Assembly (NCBI RefSeq): GCF_030695065.1
Contig: NZ_JAUYTR010000016.1
Span: 310,001-374,000, forward strand
Length of the DNA: 64,000 nucleotides
Reading direction: 5' to 3'
DNA from: Sediminibacterium sp.
GTDB lineage: Bacteria; Bacteroidota; Bacteroidia; Chitinophagales; Chitinophagaceae
Shown here: piece by piece, positions 7,300 through 58,648 of the stretch
Position numbering within the stretch: the first letter of the stretch is position 1
How the letters are laid out: each line of letters opens with the position of its first letter
Notes under the pieces: generated by a model
The model's database searches: none
Seen by the model: only the letters and a program-made list of their open reading frames with translations
Told to the model about the DNA's origin: nothing
Made by a program: the position numbers and the translations under genes

Positions 7300-9474
7300 A
7301 TGAAATTTTTTGCAACCTTCTTGACAATCCTATTATTGTCTATAAAAGTTCAATCACAGGAAGTACCAACTACTTCAAATCATACTATTAAGATTGTAGT
7401 TAGAGAAGCCGAAGAGAAAAAGCCTTTGGCAGGAGCAACAGTGATGATCCCATCGTTAAAAAAAACCTTAGTAGCAGATAGCAACGGAGCTGCTTTATTT
7501 ACACAAATACCTGCCGGGAAATATACATTCAAGATCAGTTTTGTTGGATACGAAAATCAAGAAATTGTCATTAATCTGCCTCAAAAAAACGACTACTTTG
7601 AAATTTTATTGAGTCATGAAGAAGAGCATGAAGAGGAAGAAGTGATTGTTACATCAACCAGAATGAGTAGATCAATTGCAGATATTGCAACAAGGGTTGA
7701 AACCATTTCAGGAGAAGAATTAACAGAGAAAGGAAATATGAAACCGGGCGATATTAGAATGTTATTAAATGAGAGTACCGGTATTCAAACACAACAAACA
7801 TCTGCTACTTCTTATAATTCAAGTATTCGTATTCAAGGGTTAGATGGAAGGTATACACAAATACTCCGTGACGGATTCCCTTTGTATGCAGGCTTTTCAG
7901 GTGGATTGAGTTTAATGCAAGTGGCACCATTAGACTTAAAGCAAATTGAAGTGATCAAAGGATCTAGTTCTACTTTATATGGTGGTGGCGCAATTGCTGG
8001 CTTGGTTAATTTAGTTTCTAAAACTCCCACGAAAGAAAAAGAATTGAGCTTTTTAGCCAATGCAACTACTGCAGGTGGTTTAGATTTAAGCGGATTTTAT
8101 AGTGAACAATTCAGTAAAGTAGGGATTACTTTTTTTGGATCAAGAAATACTTCCAATGCTTACGATCCTGCTGGTATAGGGCTAACAGCCATTCCTAAAT
8201 TTGAGCGTTACACGATTCACCCTAGATTATTTTTTTCTGGGAATAAAACCAAAGCAAATTTTGGTTTGAATTATATTACTGAGAAGAGGCTAGGAGGTAG
8301 TATGGATTATATTAAGAATGGCAGTTTAGGTTATTTTGAAAACAATCAAACCAATAGATTGACTTCTCAATTTCAATTGACACATCAAATAAACGAGCAA
8401 TCTAATTTCGTATTTAAAAACAGCTATAGCCGATTCAACAGATCCATTCAAATTCCTGCCTATGAATTTAAAGGACTTCAACAAACCAGCTTTTCTGAAG
8501 CTACCTATCAATACAAAGCAACAAAACATGATTGGATTATTGGCACCAATTTTATTACCGATCATTTTAAAGAATTAAATACAACAGTTGCTAATTCTAG
8601 AGATTATCAATTCAATACATGGGGAATATTTATTCAAAATACTTGGAAAGCAAGCGAAATACTGAGCATTGAAACAGGACTAAGAGGAGATTATGTAAAA
8701 CAATTTGGATTTGAATTGCTTCCAAGAATAGCAGCCATTTTAAAAGCCAATGCACAATTAACCTTAAGATTAGGCGGCGGAATGGGCTATAAAACACCTA
8801 CTGTATTTAATGAAGAAGCAGAAAAATTACATTTTCGAAATATAAGACCAATTGATCAATTGATTTCAATCAATGAGCGTTCTGTTGGAGGAAATTTTGA
8901 TATTAATTTTCGTACAAGATTAGGAGAAATAGGGTTCGCAGTTAATCAATTATTTTTTTATACTAGATTAAATTCCCCCTTGGTATTAGTAAATAGTGGA
9001 ACAAGTTCATCTTTTGTAAACGCAAACGGTTTTATCAGTACCAAAGGAATGGAAACCAATCTGAGATTGAGTTACGAAGACTTCAAACTATTTATAGGCT
9101 ATACTTATGCAGATGTTAATACTCAATTCAACAATGTAAAAAACTGGTTTCCATTAACGTCCAGACACCGAGTTAATAATGTATTGATGTATGAAAAAGA
9201 AGGTAAATTCAAAATTGGTGCTGAAGCTTATTATTTTAGTCCTCAACAATTAAGTGATGGTGCAATGGGAAAATCATATTGGATTTTTGGATTAATGGCC
9301 GAAAAAATCTGGAATAATTTCTCCTTATTTATCAATTTTGAAAATTTTACCGATACCAGACAAACCAAATTCGACACCATTTATTCTGGTTCAATTAACA
9401 ACCCAATGTTTAGAGACATTTATGCCCCAGTGGATGGTTTTGTAATAAATGGAGGCCTCAAATTGAGATTATAA
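7300..9474 (+). CDS. TonB-dependent outer-membrane receptor with N-terminal carboxypeptidase-regulatory-like domain
   Basis: Signal peptide, KPLAGATVMIPSLKKTLVADSNGAALFTQIPAGKYTFKISFVGYE domain, plug domain (IRIQGLDGRYTQILRDGFPLY, VIKGSSSTLYGGGAIAGLVNLVSK), C-terminal beta strand. 7300 ATG chosen over 7279. Confidence 0.9.
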   Translation: MKFFATFLTILLLSIKVQSQEVPTTSNHTIKIVVREAEEKKPLAGATVMIPSLKKTLVADSNGAALFTQIPAGKYTFKISFVGYENQEIVINLPQKNDYFEILLSHEEEHEEEEVIVTSTRMSRSIADIATRVETISGEELTEKGNMKPGDIRMLLNESTGIQTQQTSATSYNSSIRIQGLDGRYTQILRDGFPLYAGFSGGLSLMQVAPLDLKQIEVIKGSSSTLYGGGAIAGLVNLVSKTPTKEKELSFLANATTAGGLDLSGFYSEQFSKVGITFFGSRNTSNAYDPAGIGLTAIPKFERYTIHPRLFFSGNKTKANFGLNYITEKRLGGSMDYIKNGSLGYFENNQTNRLTSQFQLTHQINEQSNFVFKNSYSRFNRSIQIPAYEFKGLQQTSFSEATYQYKATKHDWIIGTNFITDHFKELNTTVANSRDYQFNTWGIFIQNTWKASEILSIETGLRGDYVKQFGFELLPRIAAILKANAQLTLRLGGGMGYKTPTVFNEEAEKLHFRNIRPIDQLISINERSVGGNFDINFRTRLGEIGFAVNQLFFYTRLNSPLVLVNSGTSSSFVNANGFISTKGMETNLRLSYEDFKLFIGYTYADVNTQFNNVKNWFPLTSRHRVNNVLMYEKEGKFKIGAEAYYFSPQQLSDGAMGKSYWIFGLMAEKIWNNFSLFINFENFTDTRQTKFDTIYSGSINNPMFRDIYAPVDGFVINGGLKLRL

Positions 9475-42628: not shown

Positions 42629-42755
42629 CAAAACAAACAGATGTCCGTTCGCTTTCAGCTCACTTTCATTTTTATTTAGTCCGCTTCGCAAAGCAAGCTT
42701 TGCTCGCTCCCTAAAACAAAAATGCCAGCCAATGGCTGGACATCTGTTTGTTTTG
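42629..42755. repeat. Nested inverted repeat next to the tRNA-Ser 3' end
   Basis: Perfect 18-nt arms CAAAACAAACAGATGTCC (42629-42646) and GGACATCTGTTTGTTTTG (42738-42755); internal arms ATTTTTATTTAG / CTAAAACAAAAAT and GCAAAGCaaGCTTTGC. Confidence 0.85.
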
Positions 42756-42756
42756 G

Positions 42757-42841
42757 CGGAGAGCTAGGGATTCGAACCCCAGGACCTGTTACAGTCAACA
42801 GTTTTCAAGACTGCCGCAATCGACCACTCTGCCAGCTCTCC
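42757..42841 (-). tRNA. tRNA-Ser (anticodon TGA)
   Basis: Reverse strand GGAGAGCTGGCAGAGTGGTCGATTGCGGCAGTCTTGAAAACTGTTGACTGTAACAGGTCCTGGGGTTCGAATCCCTAGCTCTCCG: 7-bp acceptor stem, CTTGAAA anticodon loop, long variable arm, GGTTCGAATCC T-loop. Confidence 0.95.
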
Positions 42842-52287: not shown

Positions 52288-52418
52288 GAATTATGCATTT
52301 AAGTTTAGCGTTTTTAAATGTAGGCATTGTTTTATTCTTATCCCAAGAATTGACAACCAAATTATCCATCTGTAAGCCAACCCGTAATCTAATCAATTGA
52401 CAATCAGCTAATTTACTG

Positions 52419-52450
52419 AACATAATACTTCTTATAATTAATATTATGTT
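52419..52450. repeat. Short inverted repeat abutting direct-repeat copy A
   Basis: AACATAATA (52419-52427) and TATTATGTT (52442-52450). Confidence 0.7.
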
Positions 52451-52480
52451 AAATAGCGCACAACAGAATGGGAAGAAAAA
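52444..52480 (+). repeat. 37-nt direct repeat, copy A
   Basis: TTATGTTAAATAGCGCACAACAGAATGGGAAGAAAAA, identical to 53331-53367. Confidence 0.97.
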
Positions 52481-52494
52481 AGGCAACGCTTCGT

Positions 52495-53022
52495 TTATTT
52501 CTTTGATGAAGAATCTGTATGAGGATTTTTGGGGCTATGAATTTTGGAGTAACCCATTTGTGATGGCTGTGCCGTTGGTTTTAATATGCTTTTTGCTTGT
52601 TTTACTTCGTCTTTCTTTATAGAGCAATATTGGTACGCTATCGGCAATATTATTGAAATAATAACTAAAATATTAGTCACCCAATACATTTTATTTTGCT
52701 TCTTTTTTGCATCCTCTCTTGATTTAATAATCTTAGAAAAACCACCGTTATTCAAGAAATCTTTAGCAGGTTCTCCGCTGCTAAACAATTGAATACTTCT
52801 TGTCCCGCCAATTAAATCAGGAATAGCTTCTCTCTTTTGTTCAACCATTGCTAAGAACAATAGTTTTCTTAGGTACTCAAAGTCTGACTCGTTGTATTTT
52901 TCATTTTCTTTACAAAACTTTTCTAGTATTATGGAGCCAGTGTACGGATTCCCCTTTGTTTTAACCAATTCGGTCAAAAGAGCATCTAAGTCAAATGCGG
53001 TTTTTTTGGTTAATTCAAGCAT
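52495..53022 (-). CDS. Hypothetical protein, one C-terminal-half transmembrane segment (cassette-type orphan)
   Basis: 175-aa ORF between the two direct-repeat copies; hydrophobic stretch MYWVTNILVIISIILPIAYQY; no family recognised. Confidence 0.65.
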   Translation of the reverse strand: MLELTKKTAFDLDALLTELVKTKGNPYTGSIILEKFCKENEKYNESDFEYLRKLLFLAMVEQKREAIPDLIGGTRSIQLFSSGEPAKDFLNNGGFSKIIKSREDAKKKQNKMYWVTNILVIISIILPIAYQYCSIKKDEVKQAKSILKPTAQPSQMGYSKIHSPKNPHTDSSSKK

Positions 53023-53159
53023 TTTTTTATTTTCCTACAATATACTAAAACTGCTCGTTTCCCTCGCCTCCCCTTATTTTTTTCTTCCCATTCTTCCCGC
53101 AACGGGGCGGCGTACCGCTTCGCTAAACTTACGCCTTCCCCTACACAACGCTACCTAAG

Positions 53160-53339
53160 TAACATAATATTGAGTTATAATTGTTTTCAATAATTTCCTA
53201 GTGAGTTCACTTCGTTCACGTTTGGGCGTCGGTATGTTGCGAATTTAAAGCCTCTAATGCGTTTCACTTATTACGATTAAATTCGCAACATACCGACGCC
53301 AAGGAAATTGAAAACACTTATAACTAACTTTTATGTTAA
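53160..53339. repeat. Long imperfect hairpin (attC-like?)
   Basis: Perfect 24-bp core GGCGTCGGTATGTTGCGAATTTAA (53225-53248) / reverse complement (53277-53300); outer arms TAACATAATATTGAGTTATAATTGTTTTCAATAATTTCCT pair imperfectly with 53301-53339. Confidence 0.92.
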
Positions 53340-53367
53340 ATAGCGCACAACAGAATGGGAAGAAAAA
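53331..53367 (+). repeat. 37-nt direct repeat, copy B
   Basis: Identical to 52444-52480. Confidence 0.97.
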
Positions 53368-53390
53368 GGCTACTCAATTGAATAGCCTTA
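53365..53390 (-). terminator. Intrinsic terminator downstream of the PQQ-dependent dehydrogenase gene
   Basis: Minus strand AAGGCTATTCAATTGAGTAGCCTTTTTC; the U-tract lies inside direct-repeat copy B. Confidence 0.75.
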
Positions 53391-55960: not shown

Positions 55961-58648
55961 TTAAATAATTGGTTCTTCGTTATTAGTCGTATTTAAATCG
56001 GCATCATTGGTTGATTCACCTGCCTCTGTGGTTCCATCAGTTTGCTCTTCATCTAACACGTTAGCTTCGCCTTCACCCTCTTCAGCTATTACTTCTTCTA
56101 CTACTTGCTCTTCAATTTGAGAAATGGCTGCAATTTCATCGCCTTCATCTAAGCGAATCAATTTAACACCTTGTGTGGCTCGTCCTGCTTCTCTAATATC
56201 TACAATACCTGTTCTAATGGTAATGCCCGATTTACAAGTAATAATTAAGTCTTCCACCTCTTTTACATAAAGTATGCCAACCAAACTTCCTGTTTTCTCA
56301 GTTACGTTAATGGTTTTAACACCTTTACCTCCTCTATTGGTAATGCGATAATCTTCAATGGCTGTTCTTTTACCGTATCCTTTTTCACTTACCACCAATA
56401 TGGTTCTTTCAGTATCGTCCTTATTTACACAAATCATGCCAACCACTTCATCGGTAGCATCATCTACTTCAATACCTGCAACCCCAATAGCACCTCTTCC
56501 AGTTGATCGAACTTTTGTTTCAGGGAATCGAATAGCACGTCCGCTTTTCACCGCCAACATAATTTCGCTAGAACCATTGGTTAATCTAGCTTCTAATAAT
56601 TCATCTCCTTCCACAATGGTAATTGCATTCACCCCATTGGCCCTAGGTCTACTGAAATCTTCTAAAGAAGTTTTCTTAATAATACCTTGCTTAGTACAAA
56701 GCACGATATAGTGATTTTGAACAAAATCAGTGTCTGCAATATTTTTAACATTAATAATTGCTTTCACTTTATCGTCACCAGGTAATTGAATCAAATTCTG
56801 TATGGCTCTTCCTTTGCTTTGCTTCTCTCCTTCTGGTATTTCATACACCCGCATCCAATAACACCTACCCTTTTCTGTAAAGAATAAAATGGTATCATGG
56901 GTAGAGGCAACAAATAAATGTTCTACAAAATCCTCTTCTCGGGTTTTTGATCCTACTGCACCTCTACCGCCTCTTTTTTGTTGACGGTATTCAGTTGCAG
57001 AAGTACGCTTAATGTATCCTAAATGTGAAATAGTAATTACTACATCTTCGTCTTCAATTAAGTCTTCAATACGCATTTCATCGGCCAAGTATTGAATTTC
57101 ACTCTTACGTGCATCACCAAATTTATCTTTTACTTCTAGTAACTCTTTTCTAATTAAAGCAAAGCGTAAATCTTCATTGGCCAATAGCGCTTTCAAGTCT
57201 CTAATGGTTGCAATTAAACCATTGAACTCTTCAATAATTTTATCGCGTTCCATTCCAGTTAATCGCTGTAAACGCAATTCTAGTATGGCTTTCGCTTGAA
57301 TTTCAGACAACCCTTCTGCTTGTTTGTACAACTCATCTGTAAGATCAGAGAACATAGCAGAATTCAAGTACCATTTTTCTTGGCTACTCTTGGTCATCAA
57401 TGCTTCCTTCGCTTCATCAGGAGTTCTACTTGCACGTATCAAACGAATCACTTCATCTAAATGGTCCAATGCTTTTAAATAACCTTCTAATACATGCGCA
57501 CGCTCCTCCGCTTTTCTTAGTTCAAATTTGGCTCTTCTAATCACCACTTCCATTCTAAATTCAATGAAAGCTTTAATTAGATCGTGCAAGTTCATAATGC
57601 CCGGACGTCCTTTGCTTAACGCCACATTATTGATACCATAACTGGTTTGTAATTCTGTATGCTTGTACAATTGATTAATGACCACTTGTGCAACCGCATC
57701 TTTCTTTAATTCAACCACAATACGAGTACCATCTTTATTACTTTGGTTACCCACATCGGATATTCCATCAACAATTTTATTGATGGCCAATTGTCCAATT
57801 CGATCCGTTAAAGTATCACGACTTACCTGATAAGGTACTTCGGTAATAACAATCATTTCTCTGCCATTGGGTTTGGTTTCCACATTGCATCTCCCTCTTA
57901 CCACAACCCTACCCCTACCGGTCATTAATGCTTGCCTAACGCCTTCCATACCATAAATCACCCCACCGGTTGGAAAATCAGGCGCTTTCACATAATTCAT
58001 TAACTCTTCAATAGTAATATCTCTATTGTCTACATAAGCCACACAGCCATCAATTACTTCGCTCAAGTTATGCGGCATCATATTGGTGGCCATACCTACG
58101 GCAATTCCAGAAGAACCATTTACCAATAACTGAGGAATTCTTGCAGGTAAAACAGTGGGCTCTTCTAATGAATCGTCAAAATTCAATTGAAAGTCTACTG
58201 TTTCCTTTTCAATATCATCTAACATGGCTTCAGCAATCTTTTGCAATCTTGCTTCGGTATAACGCATAGCAGCCGGTGGATCTCCATCTTGGTTACCAAA
58301 GTTACCTTGACGATCTACCAATGTATAACGCATGGTCCACTCTTGGGCCATCCTCACCAATGTATCATAAATAGCACTATCACCGTGGGGGTGATACTTA
58401 CCCATTACTTCCCCCACAATACGGGCAGATTTCTTAAAAGGCTTATTGCTGTTATTCCCCAACTCATTCATTGCGTATAAAACCCTACGGTGTACAGGCT
58501 TAAACCCGTCCCTCACATCTGGTAATGCACGACCCACAATAACCGACATTGAATAGTCAATGTAAGCGGTCTTCATTTGCTCTTCAATATTGACCTGTAT
58601 AATTCGGTCGTTATCGTTGGTTTGTTCTGGTATTAAGTTCTCTTCCAT
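55961..58648 (-). CDS. gyrA: DNA gyrase subunit A
   Basis: [60 protein letters not shown] GyrA box. Confidence 0.98.

Follow-up and report, generated by a model that had tools for sequence, protein, structure and literature searches.

Described elements at dif and integron cassettes

The attP(+) of CTXphi, about 150 nt long, is formed by a pair of dif-like sequences that are inverted and separated by 90 bp, and it acts as substrate in the form of ssDNA (PMC4246890). IMEX of the CTXphi type have no integrase, take dif as their target, carry two inverted foldable dif-like attP sequences and integrate in tandem at dif. Neighbouring pdif sites are in inverse orientation. In the dif or pdif modules of Acinetobacter, genes are bounded by XerCD sites, undergo modular exchange and occur in arrays (PMC12907356). 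These modules are on plasmids or at extra chromosomal dif-like sites. The Bacteroidetes dif microviruses (BMV), of which BMV4-6 have an additional dif-like sequence, possess the capsid and Rep genes of complete ssDNA viruses (PMC3091885). Integron cassettes, with their attC sites, are single-gene units with a folded recombination site and form arrays from one platform site. Integron integrases are close relatives of XerCD. A published proposal derives integron cassettes from phages or other IMEX with adaptive genes, and names CTXphi as the sole similar reaction known (PMC4792948).

Here we describe an element of about 0.89 kb from a Sediminibacterium sp., found in a stretch of 64,000 nucleotides that we call the window. 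It consists of one orphan gene and then a folded attachment site at its right end. Like an IMEX it is at the chromosomal dif, has two mimics of dif (attP1 and attP2) and has no recombinase of its own, and as in the CTXphi attP its two dif-like sequences are inverted and pair within one strand. It differs from the CTXphi type in that the units are of about 1 kb with a single gene, have no replication or virion genes, have covarying terminal repeats, form arrays with several cargoes and are also present in tailed-phage genomes, and this in Bacteroidota. As in pdif modules the gene lies between two inversely oriented XerCD-type sites, the order being attP1-cargo-attP2 in phage copies and dif-cargo-attP2 in chromosomal copies, but in contrast to the Acinetobacter modules the main dif is used, there is a large structured site at the end, and the units are phage-borne. 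Integration at dif and the phylum are shared with the BMV. With regard to integron cassettes, the differences are that there is no IntI and no R'' box, that the site is dif-like, and that some of our cassettes have a promoter-like motif.

The element has those defining features of an IMEX that sequence can show, and a CTXphi-type site, but is new as a cassette of about 1 kb that takes multiple cargoes, forms arrays and is carried by phages; we found no description of such cassettes in the open-access literature, which omits most subscription journals. It fails the integron tests, yet by its architecture resembles an integron cassette in its working. The best explanation, and one that we consider likely, is that these are mobile cassettes without a recombinase, dependent on XerCD and partly carried by phages, which resemble integron cassettes with dif in the role of attI.

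The element and the chromosomal dif site

A sequence-only reading of this DNA had drawn attention to a 37-nt perfect direct repeat, TTATGTTAAATAGCGCACAACAGAATGGGAAGAAAAA, with one orphan ORF and a long hairpin between the copies, and all three are present. The copies at 52444-52480 and 53331-53367 (both plus strand) are identical and beyond chance, with 0 expected from shuffles; the ORF at 52495-53022, on the minus strand, encodes 175 aa; and 53150-53345, which includes the hairpin, folds as DNA at -48.7 kcal/mol (z = -11.3). Three points had escaped that reading: it is the dif site that forms the left inverted repeat, the A/G-rich end of the 37-nt repeat occurs once more, inverted, inside the element at 53078-53094, and the right flank past attP1 resembles an older cassette's left end. 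The left copy comprises the XerD arm and the left end of the cassette, including the left terminal inverted repeat at 52465-52481 (plus strand), the complement of which is the right terminal inverted repeat (53078-53094, minus strand). The right copy is host flank, and apparently carries the left end of an earlier cassette that has been lost.

The start of the 37-nt repeat, TTATGTTAAAT, is the XerD arm of the 28-bp chromosomal dif site ACTTCTTATAATTAATATTATGTTAAAT (52427-52454, plus strand), which has ACTTCTTATAA as its XerC arm and TTAATA as its centre. Of the 55 relatives in which a search with the dif pattern gave a match, 54 have a single copy and one has two. The XerD arm and most of the centre are nearly invariant among 47 dif loci compared, a set in which a few genomes enter twice. 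In G017, a complete, single-contig relative, dif is at 0.599 Mb, and GC skew, taken from 20 sampled stretches only, turns negative between 0.64 and 0.77 Mb and positive again between about 2.0 and 2.3 Mb. By these switch positions dif is close to the terminus, roughly facing the origin side. The genome of the window encodes a XerD above the curated cut-off and a XerC homologue, for which XerC is the best model with a score below the cut-off. Three consecutive tyrosine recombinase genes (G000:C3:1536-4021) are like the recombinase trio of another mobile element.

In the window dif is a few kb from gyrA (52427-52454 and 55961-58648 respectively) with a gene for a TPR protein between them, and L066 and G184 show this TPR-gyrA neighbourhood too. 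The single tRNA-Ser (TGA) gene of the window is at 42754-42841.

Empty and occupied sites in relatives

In both G011 and G017 the asparaginase and GSDH genes flank a dif site with no insert, and the flanks of the element in the window, when joined without it, match G011 at 89% over 264 bp. The comparison of synteny at the asparaginase and PQQ-dehydrogenase genes that had been proposed in the sequence-only reading has found empty sites. The mobility suggested there is also borne out by related copies in other genomes and in phages, the reverse of an ancestral arrangement that is shared by all relatives and has no copies elsewhere.

L064 and L066 have the same neighbour genes as the window with different cassettes, and in L066 there is an array of three, in the order dif, cassette, site, cassette, site and a third cassette that is truncated. 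Cassettes with other genes are present at dif in G015, G227, G358, L060, L063, L067 and G536, with the right end truncated in G227, G358 and L067. Within the genus 10 of 147 genomes have the attP2 sequence. It is also present in G184, from another genus of the family, for which dif itself is off the contig; two further matches were off-motif.

In the case of G011, G017 and G457 (loci L035, L036 and L079) nothing of a cassette comes after dif except what resembles a left end, starting AGCGCACAACAG, and at other cassette-free dif sites unrelated sequence follows dif. The simplest reading of a lone left end of this kind is that it is the scar of an older cassette. The right copy of the repeat in the window would be such a scar, which would explain why the repeat runs 26 nt past the XerD arm.

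The folded attachment site

At the right of the element attP2 (inverted), a hairpin and attP1 follow one another, taking up 185 nt in all. The inverted dif-like site attP2 (53157-53184, minus strand) has TTATGTTACTT as its XerD arm and ATTATAAC as its XerC arm. The distal hairpin (53225-53300) has a perfect stem of 24 bp, formed by 53225-53248 and 53277-53300. The dif-like right junction, attP1 (53314-53341, plus strand), has XerC arm ACACTTATAAC, centre TAACTT and the XerD arm TTATGTTAAAT. The two halves of the hairpin are bordered by XerC- and XerD-arm sequences, and these are conserved from one cassette to another.

The same fold is present in the window and at seven other junctions. Among six distinct distal stems 98.6% of cells are paired, a percentage that is favoured by the arms having been excised and registered by hand with a placeholder loop. 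Both sides have changed in 16 of 23 pairs, the mean for shuffled controls being 8 (0 of 500 reach 16) and the range 1 to 5 when the arms were slid. For the terminal repeats of 15 cassettes, some of them close kin, a cassette's own partner fits better than those of others (0 of 20000 permutations), although for three of them it has no high rank. We lean slightly towards a folded single strand or a cruciform as the substrate for integration, and it is the fold that points to a single-strand step.

The fold is like that of the CTXphi attP (PMC4246890), and some of the Bacteroidetes microviruses that integrate at dif have an additional dif-like site (PMC3091885), so that one could see in the element what is left of an ssDNA virus (microvirus or inovirus), or of a satellite of one, that had integrated at dif and been reduced to attP and an accessory gene. 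However no replication or capsid gene was recognised in the cassettes examined, the ends are kept while the cargo changes, and the carriers so far are tailed-phage contigs, which makes such an origin unlikely. Scans of viral contigs gave no such att ends in ssDNA viruses, although this is weak evidence.

Junctions and proposed mechanism

At the left junction of chromosomal copies the XerC arm and the centre are still of host type, as in dif, and the right junction, where intact, has the element's own ACACTTATAAC (ACACTAATAAC in G184) and a different centre. This composition puts the exchange at or beyond the border of the centre and the XerD arm, finer placement being prevented by the XerD arm that is shared. 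The targeting of dif is well supported by comparison, and we are confident that host XerCD acting at dif provides both the target and the enzymes. The genome encodes the two enzymes on which an IMEX would rely for integration, and XerCD would presumably catalyse it. What counts against this is that the centre of attP1 is apparently one base longer than that of dif when TTATAA is used to align the XerC arms.

The sequence-only reading had offered a lone or decayed integron cassette, or a new kind of mobile unit built on the same plan. The latter is in essence borne out by the single gene, folded site, arrays and empty sites, but the former is unsupported. The junction GTTAAAT does fit the R' consensus GTTRRRY as claimed, but only as the end of the XerD arm, and its partner AAGTAAC does not fit R'' (RYYYAAC), leaving the R'' box absent. 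Insertion of a CALIN-type cassette with attC by an integron integrase could account for one gene with a folded site, and for arrays, but not for dif as the target, nor for the conserved XerC- and XerD-arm sequences that border both hairpin halves. The genome has no integron integrase above the curated cut-off, although a CALIN does not require one. With target, end sites and integrase all against it, this explanation is largely refuted and we consider it highly improbable. A search of Rfam gave nothing over the gathering score; the matches obtained, to miRNA and snoRNA models, were weak and fell far short of it.

We suggest that host XerC and XerD most likely integrate the cassette at the chromosomal dif. 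The two inverted dif-like sequences of the cassette would fold back on each other, as in CTXphi, and recombination of the folded (or cruciform) site with dif would put the cassette on the XerD side of dif. A complete dif would be restored at the left, where further cassettes could be added, and dif would in this way act like attI. Tailed phages, which bear the cassettes as insertions, would be the likely vehicle.

The cassettes are close to the published proposed ancestor of integron cassettes, and we see an even chance that this is a natural cassette system driven by XerCD, with dif as platform, folded dif-like sites and delivery by phage, which gives a living example of a possible pre-integron state. 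Small cassettes of varied cargo whose dif-like ends fold, stacked at dif and occurring in tailed phages, would make the idea of an IMEX ancestor directly testable. They would also show a possible route for exchange of accessory genes between tailed phages and chromosomes, some of these genes being like toxins or HEPN or NYN nucleases, and the prediction is that dif neighbourhoods are gene-capture sites in some Bacteroidota.

Copies in tailed phages

The same ends are present in five IMG/VR contigs (L053, L054, L055, L056 and L068), and had no match in named phages or plasmids. Four of the contigs (L054, L055, L056 and L068) have tailed-phage genes around the unit (portal, head-tail connector, tail, endolysin and DNA polymerase), L054 being assigned via its similarity to L055. 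In L056 and L068 the unit is in the same place, between the Neck1 and tail terminator genes, with different cargo, and in six close relatives (L160-L165) these two genes abut with nothing between. Comparison of L054 with L055 gives 92-94% for the ends of the unit and 78-90% for parts of the backbone, and the cargo is not shared. Inverted repeats GACCACGACCGAC and CCATTACCGAGAAT flank the phage copies in L054 (about 1430-1460 and 2245-2265) and L056 (about 7715-7740 and 8365-8385), and the copies are preceded by GGACC; insertion into phages may be by a mechanism other than Xer.

The cargo of G015 is related to that of phage contig L053 (BLAST, E 4e-8), which is a direct link between a chromosomal and a phage cassette. 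We think it fairly probable that phages are the vehicle by which cassettes reach chromosomes, and infer both the hosts of the phages and the phage-to-chromosome direction of transfer. The phage copies are split within the right stem of the hairpin and not at attP1, and for this reason the cassette model leaves the route between phage and chromosome unexplained.

The presence of the same ends in phages with different cargo would also be expected if the unit were part of phages whose entire genomes integrate at dif, by recombination of duplex attP1 with dif, the chromosomal copies being leftover prophage ends; in a circular phage the interval from attP2 to attP1 would then hold the remaining genome. 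However the intact chromosomal stems are perfect and covary, and deletion would not restore them from the split phage copies. There is also the array of intact small units, and no prophage was seen at dif. We regard integration of whole phages as decidedly unlikely, and prefer the integration of small cassettes by XerCD.

Cargo genes

A promoter-like TATATTG is present 22 nt upstream of the ATG of the window cargo gene (53038-53044, minus strand), and at -24 in L063, L064 and L067, making four cassettes with the window. Some cassettes may thus bring their own promoter.

The protein encoded in the window has a long hydrophobic stretch near residues 113-133, which suggests one membrane helix. 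A search of viral contigs and of 248 further genomes from the family gave no relatives, and there was no match in NCBIfam or PADLOC, nothing significant in the PDB, and in Pfam only two matches, far below the cut-off. An AlphaFold single-sequence model had a pLDDT of 49 and was too poor for use. By eye we suspected a common cargo family, with a small N-terminal domain and a membrane helix, but BLAST supports only G015 with L053 and a HEPN-like group, and a multiple alignment was uninformative. The cargo of other cassettes includes matches to NYN, PemK and PBECR3 domains and weak matches to CARF-HEPN models, and our guess is that the role is in interference with phages or is toxin-like.

One viral contig (L053 / L120, 8929-11042) has at least two tandem cassettes, with NYN-domain and PemK-like genes among their cargo, and each cassette follows the same leader of about 150-200 bp with the promoter-like sequence TATATTTG.
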